Assembly (NCBI GenBank): GCA_021794235.1
Contig: JAJYRE010000007.1
Coordinates: forward strand, 1 to 52,122
Source: Nanobdellota archaeon
GTDB taxonomy: Archaea > Nanobdellota > Nanobdellia > Parvarchaeales > Parvarchaeaceae
Direction of reading: 5' to 3'
DNA length: 52,122 nt
Part shown: positions 3,395-51,783 of the stretch, in pieces
How positions within the stretch are numbered: the stretch's first letter is position 1
How the letters are laid out: every line of letters begins with the position of its first letter
The notes under the pieces: model-generated
What the model was told of the DNA's origin: nothing
The model's database searches: none
The model's input: the letters and a program-made list of their open reading frames with translations, nothing else
Position numbers and translations under genes: made by a program

Positions 3395-3871
3395 CTACTG
3401 ATATAATCTAATGTGGTAATTGTTCAGTTTCTGTGAGTCGTCGAAAAGAAATGTCGCATCCACGCTTCTGCCGTTCAAAACGTGCGGCAGCCACACCCTG
3501 TCATCATCCCACATGCTTTCGAACGGTATCTCTTTCATATCGAACCATTTCGGAGCCATCTCCTCACTTTCCGCAGGTTCTCCGCTCCAGTCCCTGCAGA
3601 CAAAAACGTGCATTTCCTGGTCGAATTCCGGTTTTCCGTCGAAAAAGAACTTTATCTCACCGATTTTTGAATAATCTTTAGGAACGACAGAAATCTCCTC
3701 TTGCGTCTCCCGCAGCATCGCGTCCTCTAGAGACTCGCCTTCCTTAAGCTTGCCGCCAACGCCGTTCCACTTTCCCATTCCGAAACCGCGCTTCTTCATC
3801 GCAAGAAGTATCTTATTTTCTTTGACTAGGAGGCACAACGTAACTTTTCGCAGTTCCCTCTCACCGTCCAT
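3395..3871 (-). CDS. Nudix hydrolase, MTH1 (8-oxo-dGTP diphosphatase)-like
   Basis: 158 residues with a perfect Nudix box: Gly40, five residues, Glu46, seven residues, then RETQEE at 54-59. The family hydrolyses nucleoside diphosphates linked to another group. The surrounding sequence (MKKRGFGMGKWNGVGGK before the box; WFDMKEIPFESMWDDD later) follows the layout of animal MTH1/NUDT1, which removes oxidised purine nucleotides from the dNTP pool. Length also matches MTH1 (about 156). Substrate is inferred from this resemblance. It converges on the surface-protein gene at 1885; the dCTPase-like gene at 4782 is a second pool-cleaning enzyme nearby. Confidence 0.88.
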   Translation of the reverse strand: MDGERELRKVTLCLLVKENKILLAMKKRGFGMGKWNGVGGKLKEGESLEDAMLRETQEEISVVPKDYSKIGEIKFFFDGKPEFDQEMHVFVCRDWSGEPAESEEMAPKWFDMKEIPFESMWDDDRVWLPHVLNGRSVDATFLFDDSQKLNNYHIRLYQ

Positions 3872-44529: not shown

Positions 44530-46419
44530 TTATTTTAGCCTGAGCGCGTCCAAAACGTGCGGAGCCTGCGTGTCGACTTTGAATCTCTTCCTCATGAACC
44601 TGGACAATTCAAGTATCTTGCTCTCTTCACCGTGGTTGAGCACTATCCTTCTAGGCCTTGGCCTGAGATCGTTGACAAACCTCTCCAGCTCTATCCTGTC
44701 CGAGTGGCCCGAGAACCCTTCTATTGAATATATCAGTGCATTTACAGTGAAGTGTCTGGTTTTTCCAGCGAACTCTATCTCGACGTCCCTTCCGCCGTTC
44801 TGCAGCGTCCTGCCGAGCGTACCGACTCCCTGATACGATACCAGGACGATAGAATTGTGCTTGTCCTCGCATAGGTTCGCGAAGTAGCTGACAGACGGCC
44901 CGCCGTTCAGCATACCGGACGTCGCCAGTATTATCGCAGGACCCTCAGAGAGGACCTGCTGCCTCTCCTCCTCACTTACCGTGTGCCTGAATACAGGAGA
45001 AAGGAACGGGTTGTTGTTGTATCCGACTATCCTGTTCTTAGTCTGTGTATTCATGAATTCCGGATAGACGGTGTATATCGCGGTGACATCCCAAAGCATA
45101 CCGTCTACTACTACGGGAACCTCCGGCAGGATTCCGTACCTCTGCCACTCCTCTATCATAAGCATTATCTCCTGTGCCCTTCCCACTCCCAGAACCGGCA
45201 CCAATACCTTCCCCCCTTCGGAAACGGTTTTCTTTATTATGTCAAGGAAGAACTCCTCAGCCTCCTCCTTCTTTGGCTGCTGGTCGTTGTCCCCTCCGTA
45301 TGTGCTCTCCATTATTATCGTCTCCAGCCTGTCAAACTGCGTCTCTGTCTTGTTAAGCGTCTTTGAATTTGCGTATTTGAAGTCTCCGGTATAGACCACG
45401 TTGTGGAAACCGTTTCCTATGTTGAGGTGTATCATCGATGAGCCGAGTATGTGGCCTGCGTTGTGCATTGTTATTCTTATATCAGGGGTGATGTCGGTCA
45501 CTTCGTGGAAGGGAAGTGCTATCGATCTCTTAAGCATCTCCTTGACCTCGTCAAGACCGAACATAGCCTTCGTATTTGTCTTGTTGGCAAGCGATATGTA
45601 ATCAAGGTGCAGCAGAGTCATTACATCGCGTGTCGGTGCAGTTGAATATACCGGCCCCTTGTAGCCGTATTTGTACAGTGCCGGGAGGAATCCGCAGTGG
45701 TCCAGGTGGCTGTGGGTTATAACGACCGCGTCCAGCTTCGAGATGTCGAATTCCGGTGCGTCTATCCTCGGTACCGGCTCTCTAGGGTTGCTGACGTCTA
45801 TCCCTACATCGAGAAGAACGGAGCTTATCGGAGTCTGAACCAGGACGGCGGATCTTCCGACGTGCCTGAACGCCCCGAGGGCGCTGATTCTAGTCCAGTA
45901 CTTGTCGTCTACTGAGAACTTCGAGTTGTATATCTTCTCGCCTATCTCGTTGAGCATCTTCCTTCTGAATTTTGAATTGGCGTAAAGCATTTCCCTGATG
46001 GCCCTCACTATGTCGGACTTTATCAGAGGGGCCCTTGACATTATCACGGACCATCCCGTCTTCTCCTTTATGAGCGATATGACCTCTTTTTTGTTGGCGA
46101 GGAGCAGTTCCGGCCTTACGAGCTCTATCGATACAAGACTCCTCTCCTTATCGAACCACATCTCCTTGATGTCGGCTTCGGCGGGCGTTACCGATTTTAT
46201 CTCCTTTTCGGCTTCTTTCTCGTCCATAAGGAGTGATGGGTCCAATCTGACCTCTATCCTCTTCTTCTCCTTGCTTACAAGCGCCTTTATTATCTCGGAG
46301 TTGTCCAGGAAGAAATTTCTGTTCTTAGTGTATACTATTACGTTTGATACCTCGAAGTTTATCTCTTCGATCAAGGATTTATCTTTTATAAATTCTACTA
46401 TGTCTTTCTTAATGTCCAC
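44530..46419 (-). CDS. fttA: KH/metallo-beta-lactamase/beta-CASP ribonuclease (aCPSF1, FttA)
   Basis: 629 residues. Two N-terminal KH-like domains (1-140) precede a metallo-beta-lactamase domain with VITHSHLDHCGF near 236 and the beta-CASP region (MESTYGGDN, LATSGMLNGGPS, EFAGKTRHFTVNALI...GFSGHSD). This is the archaeal homologue of the eukaryotic cleavage factor CPSF73, which cuts nascent RNA at U-rich sites and ends transcription. Archaea nearly always have it. It follows the proteasome beta gene 22 bases later on the same strand. Confidence 0.95.
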   Translation of the reverse strand: MDIKKDIVEFIKDKSLIEEINFEVSNVIVYTKNRNFFLDNSEIIKALVSKEKKRIEVRLDPSLLMDEKEAEKEIKSVTPAEADIKEMWFDKERSLVSIELVRPELLLANKKEVISLIKEKTGWSVIMSRAPLIKSDIVRAIREMLYANSKFRRKMLNEIGEKIYNSKFSVDDKYWTRISALGAFRHVGRSAVLVQTPISSVLLDVGIDVSNPREPVPRIDAPEFDISKLDAVVITHSHLDHCGFLPALYKYGYKGPVYSTAPTRDVMTLLHLDYISLANKTNTKAMFGLDEVKEMLKRSIALPFHEVTDITPDIRITMHNAGHILGSSMIHLNIGNGFHNVVYTGDFKYANSKTLNKTETQFDRLETIIMESTYGGDNDQQPKKEEAEEFFLDIIKKTVSEGGKVLVPVLGVGRAQEIMLMIEEWQRYGILPEVPVVVDGMLWDVTAIYTVYPEFMNTQTKNRIVGYNNNPFLSPVFRHTVSEEERQQVLSEGPAIILATSGMLNGGPSVSYFANLCEDKHNSIVLVSYQGVGTLGRTLQNGGRDVEIEFAGKTRHFTVNALIYSIEGFSGHSDRIELERFVNDLRPRPRRIVLNHGEESKILELSRFMRKRFKVDTQAPHVLDALRLK

Positions 46420-46441: not shown

Positions 46442-47062
46442 TTAACGAGATACTATTTTCTGTACTTCTTCGTCGGTCATTTTCTTGTAACCTTTTTTGT
46501 TCATTATTGCTATGTCGATACCCTCTCCGGTATAGACATCTCTCTTTATTGAGGATGAAACAGCTTTGAATGCGAGTTTGATTGCTTCCTCTTCCGTCAT
46601 GTTGTCCTTGTAGTCTCCTTCCAGGACGCCCAATGCGAAGACGCCTCCGCTTCCCGTCACGGTAAACTTGTCCTTTCCCTGTCCGCCGGCCTCGTCTATG
46701 GAGTACAAATGCGGTGCAGTGTCGTATCCACCGACTATGAATTCTCCATATAGTATGTTAAGTGAAAGCCTTCTGTTGAAGAGTATTGTGCTGAGTAGGC
46801 CTACCGCGCCGTCAACGCTCAGTTTTGAACTGGATCTTATCTCGTGAAGCGTGAGTTCCGATCTCATTATCCTTACTACTGCCTGCAGGTCTGCGACCAT
46901 ACCGGCCGTTGTTATGCCTATTCTATCGCTTATCGCCATCACTTTTTCGGCGGTCTTGCTTGCAACGATGTGTCCTGCCGTAGCACGCCTATCGGCTGCC
47001 AGAACGACGCCGTCCTTATACAATAACCCTACAGTTGTAGTTCCTGTCTTTAATTGTTCCAT
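46442..47062 (-). CDS. psmB: Proteasome beta subunit
   Basis: 206 residues. A 7-residue propeptide (MEQLKTG) ends before TTTVGLLYKDGVVLAADRRAT, so mature Thr1 is Thr8. Asp17 and Lys33 equivalents (AADRRAT; SKTAEKVM) are present. Beta rings form the inner chamber of the 20S proteasome and carry the proteolytic sites. Length is normal. Heads a two-gene operon with the beta-CASP nuclease. The alpha subunit and PAN are not in the window. Confidence 0.96.
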   Translation of the reverse strand: MEQLKTGTTTVGLLYKDGVVLAADRRATAGHIVASKTAEKVMAISDRIGITTAGMVADLQAVVRIMRSELTLHEIRSSSKLSVDGAVGLLSTILFNRRLSLNILYGEFIVGGYDTAPHLYSIDEAGGQGKDKFTVTGSGGVFALGVLEGDYKDNMTEEEAIKLAFKAVSSSIKRDVYTGEGIDIAIMNKKGYKKMTDEEVQKIVSR

Positions 47063-47181
47063 AGTTAATAGTAACAGAATTATTATTTAATATTGTTTTA
47101 TTATAAATACTTTTTCTTTATCCGCAGCAGTAAAAACATAAAGAAGATTTATATATATAAGTTATTTCCTTTATAGTGATT

Positions 47182-48006
47182 ATGAAATCAAGAGCATCGT
47201 TCACAATAGATTCAAATGTGCTTGCAAAACTGGACTCCGTAGTCGACAATATATACTACAGGTCGAAGAGCGAGGCCGTAGAGGATATACTTAGAAAGTT
47301 CTTCGAGAGGCAGAATACGGCTATAATACTCTGCGGCGGAGAGTTCAAGGTGGCTGGCACGGAGCTGTACCGTCCGCTCGTAAAGATAAACGACGCTACG
47401 GTGATAGAGAACATAGTCAACAGGCTCAGGCTTAACAACTTCAGGAACATAATGATCTCCGGCAAGACGGAGCTGCTTAAGCAGATATTCACACTCCTTA
47501 AGAACGGCGAGGGCTACGGGGTCGACATAAAATACGTAGACGACAACAATCTCAAGGGAAGCGCCAGGGCGCTCGAGAGGGTGAAGCAGTACGTAGGCTC
47601 CACGACTCTTTTTGTAACAGGGGATTCGGTATTCGACATCGATCTTAAGGACATGCTGAAGTTCCACATAGCCCACAACAGTCCGGCTTCCATAGCGGTT
47701 TCCGTCGCGCAGGACAGGACAGAGCAGACAAGCGACAAGCTGATGATGAAGGGGAATAAGATCGTGCACTACGAAAAGCTGAATGACACTTACAACTCAA
47801 AGATGGTTCCGACATCGGTTTTCATGCTGGATCAGGACGTATTCAAGTACATTCCGCCGGGGGACATGACCTGGGATATAAAGAGAGACCTGCTGCCGCT
47901 TCTGGCAAAGGATGGACTTCTTTTTGGATACATCTACAACGGAACTTGGGTGAATGTCAAGACCAAGGACGATATCGACAAAGCCGTAAAGATAGTAAAG
48001 CAGTAA
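47182..48006 (+). CDS. Ribbon-helix-helix domain fused to degenerate sugar nucleotidyltransferase
   Basis: 274 residues from ATG 47182 (a GTG at 47176 is also possible). Residues 1-42 (RASFTIDSNVLAKLDSVVDN...KSEAVEDILRKFFER) are a CopG-like RHH. Residues 45-274 follow NDP-sugar pyrophosphorylases: AIILCGG, LVKINDATVIENIV, FVTGDSVFDIDL, TSVFMLDQDVFKYIP and GTWVNVKTKDDI. But the GxGTR loop that binds the nucleotide is missing its Arg and the usual KPL is RPL, and WxDxG is WVNVK, so catalysis may be lost. A sugar-nucleotide-sensing repressor is one reading. TATA (tttatatatat) about 25 bases upstream. Confidence 0.82.
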   Translation: MKSRASFTIDSNVLAKLDSVVDNIYYRSKSEAVEDILRKFFERQNTAIILCGGEFKVAGTELYRPLVKINDATVIENIVNRLRLNNFRNIMISGKTELLKQIFTLLKNGEGYGVDIKYVDDNNLKGSARALERVKQYVGSTTLFVTGDSVFDIDLKDMLKFHIAHNSPASIAVSVAQDRTEQTSDKLMMKGNKIVHYEKLNDTYNSKMVPTSVFMLDQDVFKYIPPGDMTWDIKRDLLPLLAKDGLLFGYIYNGTWVNVKTKDDIDKAVKIVKQ

Positions 48007-48064: not shown

Positions 48065-48331
48065 ATGGAATTCAAAGACCTGGATGAGCCGTCGGAAAAA
48101 ATAACAAGGGAGGGATCCCGAAATTTCATAAAAGTGAACCTTACAAAGGGTGTGGAAGGCGACAAAGAAATCACTTTTGTCAGCATCAAGAAAGGATACA
48201 CCACCGAGATAGACGGAAAGCAGCAGGACAGGATAAAATCAAGCATATCGCTTAGTTTCGAGGAGCTGTCTCTCCTTATAGACGCTCTGACAAACTTCAA
48301 GAGCAAGTTAGAGTCATCCGATTTCAATTAA
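48065..48331 (+). CDS. Small hypothetical protein, possibly PC4/ssDNA-binding-like
   Basis: 88 residues. After a charged N-terminus come four likely strands (NFIKVNLTKGV, KEITFVSIKKGY, SISLSF) and a C-terminal helix (EELSLLIDALTNFKSKLES). This order recalls the PC4 transcription-coactivator fold that binds single-stranded DNA, but the resemblance is weak. Own AT-rich box upstream. No overlap with neighbours. Confidence 0.6.
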   Translation: MEFKDLDEPSEKITREGSRNFIKVNLTKGVEGDKEITFVSIKKGYTTEIDGKQQDRIKSSISLSFEELSLLIDALTNFKSKLESSDFN

Positions 48332-48386: not shown

Positions 48387-50252
48387 ATGTCAATAAAGAC
48401 TGGTCTATTTTTACTTTCGGCAGTGGTCGTAGTCTCCCTTTTCGCACTAGGTGCAGTGGGTGCGCAGCCCGCAGCTTCCTCGAGTCTTAAGGTGTACGGT
48501 TCGACAGGGCTGTATATATTCGGCGTGACCAACATCAACGGGACCATAACTGGAGTTCCAGCAGTCCTGAATCTAACTGTTACTAACGGTACCGGACAGG
48601 TGTTTTTGGGTTCTACGCCTCTGACGCAGACGGATACCCAGGCGCAGGCTGTTCTATCGACGGACGTGGCGTGCAACCTGCTAAATCTTAACTGCGACAA
48701 CTACAATTTCTATTACTATATAACATCGGCTTCACCGGAAGTCGGCGGGCCAAGTGCCGGTTCGGCTTTCACGATGGCGGCGATGTCGATACTGAGCGGC
48801 AAGCCGCTGAACAAGAACATAGCAATGACCGGGACAGCAAATCCTGACGGCAGCGTAGGCATAGTCGGAGACGTATCACAGAAGAGCATGGCAGCCGCGA
48901 ATCTAGGGATAAAGGTATTCCTCTATCCATCTACAAACAACGTCTCCTCCTCTTCACTGCAGTACGATGAAGAACACGGCCTCGTTCCTATACCGGTTTC
49001 CAACGAGTACCAGGCATTTCAGTATTTCACTGGATACAACTACACCCCAACCGTGAACAGCAGCATCAACTCCCCTCTTTACAATAAACTTATGAACAAG
49101 ACGTACCAGGAGTTCCTGACATACCAGAACTCAATATACAACTCGATACCCAACCTGAACTCATCATCCGCGGATATCGCTTCCCTTATCTCAACCGCGC
49201 AGGTGCTGATGACAAACGAGACCGCAGCAGCAGCCAGCGGAAATTACTATGTAGCCGCCAGTGAGATGGTTTCCTCGTCGTCTTATCTGCTCGAAGCAAA
49301 GGTTCTGGAGAATATGCAAAACTCATCCGACAATGCCACATTCATATCGAATCTGGTCTCGGCTCAGAACGCAACGATATCAAAGACGATGAATGACATA
49401 TCCAGCAATTACATTACTAACAGCACGACACTGATGCTCAAGTTCATTGCACTGGACAGACTGGCGGAGGCGCAGAGCTATATGAATCAGTCTCTTAGCA
49501 GTTTGTCGAGCGGCAGCGTCCTAAATGCGGCTTCCCTTTACGCTCTCGGAGCAGTAAAGTCGAATACGTCCTACTTCTGGACGTCGATACTGCAGAGGGG
49601 CAATTCAAATTTCTCGCAGAGCGAATACAGCAATCTCAGCAGCTATTACCTTTACAAGGCGCTATCATATTCAACCTACGCATCGCTGCTCGGTGCGCAG
49701 GTACCATCCCAGTCGACGAGCATGCAGACATACCTCACGCACGCACAGAACTGGTATAACAGCGGACAGTACGTGCCTTCAATCTTTTCATCGATAGAAG
49801 CGATAAGCGTTGCACAGATGCTTATAGAGGAAAACAGCCTGATAAATACGTCCGTCCTGTCTCAGATAAACAACCAGACGGCTTTGTCAGCCCTGAGGAC
49901 AATCAACTCCGCAGAGAATGTAGGGGCAACACCATTCCTCGGGATAAGCTACTATTACTTCTCCCTCCAGTTCCAGAACACTTCGGAATACAACTATCTG
50001 CTGTTCGGATCCGAGGCAAGGAACCTCGCATACTTCGGGATAAGACTGTCATCCGGTCAGATACATCCTTATACTCCAAACCTTAGCCCTATAAACGTGG
50101 CGACGCCGCTATCACCTTCGTATCTCGAAGGAGCGTACGTGGCATTGGGGTTGGCGATAGGAATAGTGATTAGCGGAGTGCTGTTCGAGTACAGATTGGC
50201 GAGAATGAACAAGAAGCCATCCAAGAAAAAGAAAAACAGCAGAAAACGCTGA
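48387..50252 (+). CDS. Extracytoplasmic Lon-type serine protease without ATPase domain
   Basis: 621 residues. A signal peptide (about 1-26) is followed by a Lon-protease domain whose catalytic dyad is Ser123 (VGGPSAGSAFT) and Lys166 (GDVSQKSMAAANLG), 43 apart as in Lon. No AAA+ domain is present. A long Ser/Asn-rich helical region (about 230-580) with sequons lies outside, and a C-terminal helix (about 584-606) with a Lys-rich tail (KKPSKKKKNSRKR) anchors it. This matches the archaeal S16-like proteases of COG1750. It probably processes surface proteins without ATP. Confidence 0.9.
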   Translation: MSIKTGLFLLSAVVVVSLFALGAVGAQPAASSSLKVYGSTGLYIFGVTNINGTITGVPAVLNLTVTNGTGQVFLGSTPLTQTDTQAQAVLSTDVACNLLNLNCDNYNFYYYITSASPEVGGPSAGSAFTMAAMSILSGKPLNKNIAMTGTANPDGSVGIVGDVSQKSMAAANLGIKVFLYPSTNNVSSSSLQYDEEHGLVPIPVSNEYQAFQYFTGYNYTPTVNSSINSPLYNKLMNKTYQEFLTYQNSIYNSIPNLNSSSADIASLISTAQVLMTNETAAAASGNYYVAASEMVSSSSYLLEAKVLENMQNSSDNATFISNLVSAQNATISKTMNDISSNYITNSTTLMLKFIALDRLAEAQSYMNQSLSSLSSGSVLNAASLYALGAVKSNTSYFWTSILQRGNSNFSQSEYSNLSSYYLYKALSYSTYASLLGAQVPSQSTSMQTYLTHAQNWYNSGQYVPSIFSSIEAISVAQMLIEENSLINTSVLSQINNQTALSALRTINSAENVGATPFLGISYYYFSLQFQNTSEYNYLLFGSEARNLAYFGIRLSSGQIHPYTPNLSPINVATPLSPSYLEGAYVALGLAIGIVISGVLFEYRLARMNKKPSKKKKNSRKR

Positions 50253-50298: not shown

Positions 50299-51783
50299 AT
50301 GAAAACCGATAATGACCTTTCTGTAGAGGACAGGCTTATGAAAGTAGCCCTGTCCCGCGGCATATACTTCAAGACGGCGGAGATATTCGGCGATAATATA
50401 AGCGGTTTTTGGGAATACGGCCCTACAGGCCTGAGGATATTCAACAACCTGCTTTCAGTATGGAGAAAGACCTTAGACAGGATCGGTGCACTTGAGATCT
50501 CCGGAAGCTCAATAATCCCGAGAAAAGTACTGCAGGCATCCGGCCACGAGAAGAACTTTTTTGACGTAGCAACCACATGCGAGAAATGCGGTTCCGTCTA
50601 CAGGGCAGACAAGCTGCTGGAGGCAGCAGCACCCGATACTGTTTTCGAGGGCATGCCGGATGACCAGCTGGTCGAGTCTCTTAAGAAATACGGTATAAAA
50701 TGCGAGAAATGCGGTTTCCCGCTTACAAATGTAAGGCACTTCGGTTCCATGTTCGGTCTGAACGCAGGCGCAGAAGACAGCAAGGAAGTAAACGCCTATC
50801 TGAGGCCTGAGGCGTGCCAGTCCATATTTCTAGACTTTGACAGGGTCTTCAAAGTTTACGGAAGGGCCCTTCCGCTTACACTGGCACAGGTCGGTAAGGC
50901 GTACAGGAACGAGATATCACCAAGGAACAGCCTGATAAGAGAGAGGGAATTCTACCAGAATGATATCGAGATATTTTTTGACGATGAATCCAAGTTCGAA
51001 CTTGGCGATGACAGGGAGATAACAGTATTCGATAAGAAAAATCCGGATGCATCAAGTATGAAGATATCAGAATACCTGTCAAAGGGCGTAATAGAGAGCA
51101 AGGTCACGGCGTACGCACTTTCGATTTTGGACGCTTTCCTTCACGACTTGGGATTCAAGAGGGAAGAGATTAGATACAGGAAGCTCTACGAGGACAAGGC
51201 ATTCTATTCCAAGGAGTCTTTCGACGCGGAGATAAAGAAGGGCGATGACTGGGTGGAAGTCACTGCGTGCAATCACAGGGGCGACCACGACCTGGCAGCA
51301 TACAAGGAGTACGGAGGATCCATAGTCGAGATAGGCGGCAGGATACCGCAGATATTCGAACTGTCCAGCGGTACAGACAGACTGTTTTATCTCCTATTAT
51401 ACAGTTCCTTCAAGTCGGACGCGGAGAGGGAATGGTTCGAACTGAACGCCAGCCTTTCACCGTACAGAGCAGCGGTCTTTCCGCTGATGCCAAAGGACTC
51501 TCTGGACGAGATAGCGATGAAAATAAAGACGGGTTCATTCTACAGCGACGTGATGTTCTACTCGGCGACGGCCAGCATAGGTAAGAGATACAGAAGAGCG
51601 GACGAGGTAGGAATCAAATTCGACTTTACCGTGGACTATCAGACCAAAGAGGACAATACGCTCACGATACGCGACAGGGATACCATGGACCAGTTTAGAA
51701 TGAAGGTCGAAGACATCGATTTATTGATAAAGGATTCGACCAAGGTAGAATTTTCAGAATTAAAAGGCAAATACGCTCACTGA
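50299..51783 (+). CDS. glyS: Glycyl-tRNA synthetase (alpha2 type)
   Basis: 494 residues, class II. SGFWEYGPTGLRIFNNLLSVWRK is motif 1 of the archaeal/eukaryotic dimer type; two CxxC pairs (CEKCGSVYRADK, CEKCGFPLTN) form a zinc site in the insertion; FRNEISPRNSLIREREF-like motif 2 (KAYRNEISPRNSLIREREF) and the C-terminal anticodon-binding domain (LSPYRAAVFPLMPKDSL) are present. It charges tRNA-Gly. Ends overlapping the convergent NAD(P)HX dehydratase gene by 7 bases. Confidence 0.96.
   Translation: MKTDNDLSVEDRLMKVALSRGIYFKTAEIFGDNISGFWEYGPTGLRIFNNLLSVWRKTLDRIGALEISGSSIIPRKVLQASGHEKNFFDVATTCEKCGSVYRADKLLEAAAPDTVFEGMPDDQLVESLKKYGIKCEKCGFPLTNVRHFGSMFGLNAGAEDSKEVNAYLRPEACQSIFLDFDRVFKVYGRALPLTLAQVGKAYRNEISPRNSLIREREFYQNDIEIFFDDESKFELGDDREITVFDKKNPDASSMKISEYLSKGVIESKVTAYALSILDAFLHDLGFKREEIRYRKLYEDKAFYSKESFDAEIKKGDDWVEVTACNHRGDHDLAAYKEYGGSIVEIGGRIPQIFELSSGTDRLFYLLLYSSFKSDAEREWFELNASLSPYRAAVFPLMPKDSLDEIAMKIKTGSFYSDVMFYSATASIGKRYRRADEVGIKFDFTVDYQTKEDNTLTIRDRDTMDQFRMKVEDIDLLIKDSTKVEFSELKGKYAH

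Follow-up and report, generated by a model that had tools for sequence, protein, structure and literature searches.

What is a DNA-binding domain doing in front of a nucleotidyltransferase (NTase) whose active site seems to have been taken apart? The question is raised by a gene at positions 47182..48006 (+ strand) of the window, the 52,122-nucleotide stretch analysed here, which is contig C20 of a metagenome-assembled genome of a Nanobdellota archaeon. The reading frame is real and correctly placed: it runs from an ATG at 47182 (a GTG lies in frame at 47176) to a stop ending at 48006, encodes 274 aa, and has 22–33 bp 5' of its ATG a TATA-like box, tttatatatata (47148..47159, +), at what would be the spacing for a leaderless archaeal mRNA. 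The sequence-only reading had proposed a ribbon-helix-helix (RHH) domain fused to a sugar nucleotidyltransferase with a broken active site, and homology searches bear this out at both ends of the protein. Residues 4–45 match NikR models (NCBIfam, E 5e-5 to 3e-3) and a PDB search finds the NikR structure 2bj1 (E=7e-4); Pfam RHH_1 gives no match on the window protein itself but does match a relative from the same subclade, B2 (E=1.6e-5). This N-terminal NikR-like domain (residues 1–44; 47182..47313, +), with its DNA-reading strand SRASFTI, is the hallmark domain of the RHH DNA-binding proteins. The nickel-binding C-terminal domain of NikR is absent, as the NikR model matches end at residue 45 and the remainder has the NDP-sugar nucleotidyltransferase fold (residues 45–274; 47314..48003, +): Pfam NTP_transferase matches residues 60–268 (E=3e-12), and the PDB matches are glucose-1-phosphate nucleotidyltransferases (best E=5e-12). 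An AlphaFold2 model from a 15-sequence alignment is of low confidence (pLDDT 54, pTM 0.49), and Foldseek still finds RmlA with it (E about 1e-12); structure prediction, which had been suggested as a check, thus speaks for the fold, but the model was rejected as too poor for reading the pocket.

The earlier remark that the GxGTR, KPL and WxDxG motifs are altered is confirmed by alignments, and the damage is shared. In place of GGxGTRLRPLTYExPK there is a degenerate nucleotide-binding loop, GGEFKVAGTELYR (47335..47373, +), which is three residues shorter and has no equivalent of the G, T or R, and the gap recurs in all 24 full-length copies from the genus. The PKP lysine is arginine in 22 of these copies and lysine in the other two, and the second metal-binding aspartate of WxxxD is lysine or arginine in 24/24 (in the window protein, Lys260 at 47959..47961, +; WVNVK versus WLPCD). 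The EKP lysine and the NAG asparagine are also missing from the genus copies; all 24 do keep the glycine of GTGGA and, in GD, the first metal aspartate. None of the 24 has either the loop or the second aspartate, and the protein does not have the active site of an NDP-sugar pyrophosphorylase. Among the 55 proteins of the same clade (clade B, below) from outside the genus, the changes are G3 to E (40), PKP K to R (44), EKP E to Q (47), NAG N to F (48) and metal-2 D to H (49), while the GTGGA glycine is kept in 55, the metal-1 aspartate in 48 and the EKP lysine in 54. The consistency of these replacements across the clade suggests a pocket that has been remodelled rather than one that has randomly decayed, and the genus copies, having lost the EKP lysine that other members keep, appear to have diverged further.

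Homologues of 65–85% identity, here called type B, are found in 24 of the 32 genomes of the order (one is cut by a contig end), all with the same damage, and both domains are constrained (omega about 0.03; 0.004–0.04 in the eight genus pairs with unsaturated dS). Across the genus the gene sits at a single syntenic locus, between the genes for the transcription termination factor FttA/aCPSF1 (44530..46419, −; Pfam KH_TffA and Beta-Casp) and a proteasome beta subunit (46442..47062, −; Pfam) on one side and, on the other, those for an 88-aa conserved protein of unassigned function directly 3' (48065..48331, +), a Lon-S16-like protease (48387..50252, +; Pfam Lon_C, E 1.6e-11) and a class II aminoacyl-tRNA synthetase, glycyl type by reading (50299..51783, +; Pfam HGTP_anticodon and tRNA-synt_2b). 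The low omega and the conserved synteny together exclude a pseudogene. With its catalytic residues gone and its fold and DNA-binding domain under selection, the protein is a candidate for the functional class of dead-enzyme sensors to which NrtR belongs.

Some features of the neighbourhood may be recorded in passing. The 88-aa protein has zero Pfam matches and is 66–90% identical within the genus; the Lon-like protease, which adjoins the type-B gene throughout the genus, has by reading an apparent signal peptide and a C-terminal membrane helix. The window's bin also holds a second type-B locus (L049; contig C7, 5597 bases, match at 1588–2400), 73% identical and with proteasome and FttA neighbours of its own. 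It is nearly identical to the locus of genome G010 (dN 0.009), so that this contig is probably a stray from a related strain.

Most of these genomes of the order also carry a second RHH-NTase, 27–32% identical and with intact motifs (type A), and in the genus the residues R and G3, both lysines, both aspartates and the asparagine are present in all 18 type A paralogues. That of the window genome lies at positions 3851–4669 of contig C1 (Pfam NTP_transferase E 1.7e-45, RHH_1 weak), and the coexistence of an intact RHH-NTase in the same genome indicates that the window copy is a duplicate specialised within a family of RHH enzymes. It had been suggested that the same fusion be sought in other DPANN genomes, and the search uncovered a family that spans the class. 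A maximum-likelihood tree of 58 RHH-NTases divides into clades A and B, each with 100/100 support; clade A, whose type A members are distributed across the class, is largely intact, and every clade-B member examined is degenerate. The window gene falls in clade B, in a subclade (B2) that also holds L124, L125 and L126 from other families (98/90), and in a search of the phylum with a clade-B profile the two groups come apart, clade B having E values of at most 1.2e-81 and type A values of about 1e-69 and weaker. Full RHH fusions are absent from the ten best-listed NTase matches on plasmids, eight of which start at residue 37 at least and two at residues 15 and 17. A few clade-A proteins (L084, L131–L134 and L145) have separately damaged GTR loops with the sugar-site motifs FGV, EKP and NAG mostly kept, and could be independent dead-enzyme regulators; one genome in which no type B was detected has a tandem pair of type A genes behind a glycosyltransferase gene (G015:C3:28295-30121; L054 and L043).

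What these proteins might regulate is suggested by where their genes lie. At 40 of the 55 clade-B loci outside the genus (not all independent, as several share a family), the nearest sugar gene is a divergent UDP-glucose/GDP-mannose dehydrogenase (UGD) gene, which in 36 of the 40 is less than 450 bp away; about 16 families are represented. By Pfam, the UGD operon mostly goes on with an NTase and an epimerase, and in three genomes (G131, G163, G216) one cluster is flanked by two clade-B genes. Type A genes adjoin those for phosphomannomutase/phosphoglucomutase or glycosyltransferases.

The space between the divergent genes has a shared architecture. A conserved element, TATCTTACCnTTATCCTACTTTATnCGATA, stands between two divergent TATA-like boxes at 39/55 clade-B loci; in clade B1 it takes the form TTTAAATATCTTACCnTTATCCTACTTTATnCGATA...TTTATATA, with no more than two core mismatches at these 39 when 350 bp were searched. 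The motif TTACCNNNATCCTAC, with at most two mismatches and less than 150 bp upstream, occurs at 30 of the 55 against 0.74 expected from shuffles, and the core has six occurrences across 13 whole genomes, every one of them upstream of a clade-B gene. The element reads as repeats of about 10 bp between opposed TATA-like boxes, a layout into which neighbouring RHH dimers would fit. Type A promoters have their own site, GTATGA-N5-TCATAC, between the TATA box and the ATG in eight genomes: GTATGA-N4-6-TCATAC occurs at 13 places in the 32 genomes, eight at type A promoters and the other five inside ORFs, and two relaxed half-sites less than 45 bp apart are found at 11/18 type A promoters but at 0/177 control starts (p about 1e-13). 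E. coli NikR has the same half-site, there as GTATGA-N16-TCATAC (PMC7055735).

When the sites are set beside the proteins, the half-site sequence follows an arginine/lysine change in the DNA-reading strand. Proteins with a Lys strand (KISITI) have TATCCTAC-type sites, and those with an Arg strand (B2, type A and an exception on the B1 side, L166/L129) have sites of the GTATTAC/GTATGA type. Arginine or lysine at this position thus offers a testable recognition rule, by which a Lys-to-Arg change is predicted to shift preference from TATCCTAC towards TATCATAC/GTATTAC.

For the window copy the picture is different. The half-site search of its promoter found none and there is no clear operator; in the genus, 9/25 type-B promoters have one half-site against 30/177 controls (p=0.03), and none has two. 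GTATKA-N5-TMATAC with two mismatches has nine matches in the window where 7.3 are expected, the TTACC/ATCCTAC element is absent at the order's UGD genes (best matches have 2–3 mismatches), and a search for UGD found no copy in the window genome, which is 78% complete, and none in 22 others of the order's 32. A motif that recurs before the type-B genes of the genus, RGTATTAARCYNAG, was tried as the mark of a regulon and rejected, as its extra matches lie mostly in coding sequence; only one repeat, that before the isomerase gene described next, is near a promoter. Two observations concern possible targets elsewhere. In three genomes of the genus (L256, L259 and L264 near 1501), AGTATTAAACTTAG stands directly 5' of the glucose-6-phosphate isomerase gene (Pfam GPI), where it overlaps the 3' end of the preceding gene; it resembles the element before the type-B gene of the same genomes and is a weak lead to that gene as a candidate target in these relatives; and promoter-like GTATTA-N5-TAATAC sites distant from RHH-NTase genes (L162, G015:C40:3719; L163, G025:C17:38149), one near a restriction-modification-like gene, might mark further targets or belong to other RHH factors.

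Taken as a whole, these observations are, we think, probably best explained by a family of transcription regulators that is built on a dead enzyme and spread across the DPANN class, the window protein being one member. The divergent UGD context, the conserved element and the way the half-site tracks the strand are the reasons for reading clade B as regulators of sugar-nucleotide genes with the dead enzyme as sensor, a reading that is strong for the family and is kept apart from the window copy. The suggestion that the gene encodes a regulator that senses through a dead enzyme and possibly controls glycan genes is accordingly upheld for the family but not carried over to this copy, whose target has probably shifted or was not found, as its genome appears to have no dehydrogenase operon. 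It is tempting to picture an ancestral RHH-NTase that regulated its own gene, and a duplicate that lost catalysis with the loop, the lysine and the second metal aspartate but kept its DNA-binding domain and a remodelled pocket, and so became a dedicated regulator. RHH dimers, presumably joined through their NTase domains, would occupy the half-site repeats that lie between the TATA box and the start codon. They would in this way repress their own gene and, in most relatives, also the dehydrogenase-NTase-epimerase operon that diverges from it; DNA binding may then be switched when the dead pocket takes up a sugar nucleotide or a sugar phosphate.

How far the genus copies still follow this scheme is where the most durable alternative arises: that they have been retargeted to their housekeeping neighbours (proteasome beta, Lon-like protease, FttA) and away from sugar metabolism. 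The conserved synteny, the divergent proteasome gene only 119 bp away and the lack of UGD in most genus genomes would all suit such a move. However, other genes intervene before the proteasome gene in some relatives, where it is not the immediate neighbour (L003, L004, L008 and L009), and the intergenic region towards it has no element shared among the genus loci. We regard retargeting as unlikely, and it may in any case hold alongside the family-level reading.

A second alternative would keep the operators and dispense with the ligand, the dead NTase being an oligomerisation scaffold alone in a protein that does no more than regulate its own gene or hold expression at a fixed level. That the core operator is restricted to the clade-B intergenic region in the 13 genomes scanned, and that several pocket residues are gone from the genus copies, is what such a repressor might look like, but the pocket replacements are consistent across families, the GTGGA glycine is kept throughout, and linkage to sugar-nucleotide genes suits a sensor; a ligand-free repressor therefore seems to us distinctly unlikely. 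Somewhat less probable again is a regulatory subunit, in which the dead NTase would pair with type A, the intact enzyme, to tune its activity, the RHH serving mainly for pairing or autoregulation. RHH domains dimerise, and an intact paralogue coexists in most of the genomes. GMPPA offers a precedent: this paralogue of GMPPB binds GDP-mannose, is not catalytic and regulates its active partner (PMC11228364). Yet a type A match is missing in several type-B genomes of the genus (G007, G008, G019), the class-wide element between clade-B and UGD genes favours a direct role in transcription, and the operators of type A and B1 differ where the recognition strand differs. Finally, the protein could still be an active enzyme, one whose motifs are altered and whose substrate is unusual, and the retained first metal aspartate and GTGGA glycine might speak for this. 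Such an enzyme is highly improbable given that the triphosphate-binding loop, the activating lysine and the second metal ligand are lost together and that intact paralogues exist in the same genomes.

We return, then, to the dead-enzyme regulators of sugar-nucleotide genes. How DPANN archaea control transcription is very little known; most of these archaea are uncultured, and many live attached to other cells. Here sequence alone yields a regulator family, its operators, a likely regulon of sugar-nucleotide genes feeding surface glycans, and an origin from a self-regulating enzyme. Descriptions of an RHH-NTase regulator were not found in the open-access papers searched, and a paper on archaeal dark matter names RHH proteins and nucleotidyltransferases only apart from each other (PMC6393860). 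On balance, and with a little less assurance than for the family itself, we lean towards the fuller proposal that a DPANN class uses a widespread, previously undescribed RHH family, derived from a duplicated self-regulating RHH enzyme, whose sensor is a dead NDP-sugar pyrophosphorylase that would read sugar-nucleotide levels and, by way of a conserved operator lying between divergent promoters, control the UDP-sugar/GDP-sugar operons that serve surface glycans. It would also show clearly that a self-regulating enzyme can coexist in the same genomes with a dead-enzyme sensor of common origin.

Parts of this arrangement have counterparts in known systems. NikR likewise joins an RHH with an N-terminal DNA-reading strand (RVTITL in type A) to a C-terminal sensor domain, and its half-site recurs as GTATGA/TCATAC at type A promoters and as GTATTAC at B2 promoters, but the sensor of the RHH-NTases is an NTase fold instead of a nickel-binding domain, and their half-sites are 5 bp apart (type A) or arranged as repeats of about 10 bp (clade B) compared with N16 at E. 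coli nik. With the NDP-sugar pyrophosphorylases of the RmlA/GalU type (PF00483) the window protein shares the fold, the GTGGA glycine and the first metal aspartate; it differs in having lost GxGTR, the PKP lysine and the second metal aspartate and in the added RHH. PutA, an active proline oxidase in which an RHH on a metabolic enzyme represses its own operon, parallels type A in its fusion of RHH to enzyme, whereas clade B is by its residues catalytically dead. Most Nudix-related transcription regulators of the NrtR and BtAraR type have lost catalysis. They too couple a DNA-binding domain to a nucleotide-metabolising enzyme fold that acts as sensor (PMC4666351, PMC6800001), but they are bacterial, combine a winged HTH with a Nudix fold, and are not homologous to the RHH-NTases. 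GMPPA is the counterpart within the pyrophosphorylases themselves, a product-binding, non-catalytic paralogue (PMC11228364); it is eukaryotic, has no DNA-binding domain and acts on enzyme activity.
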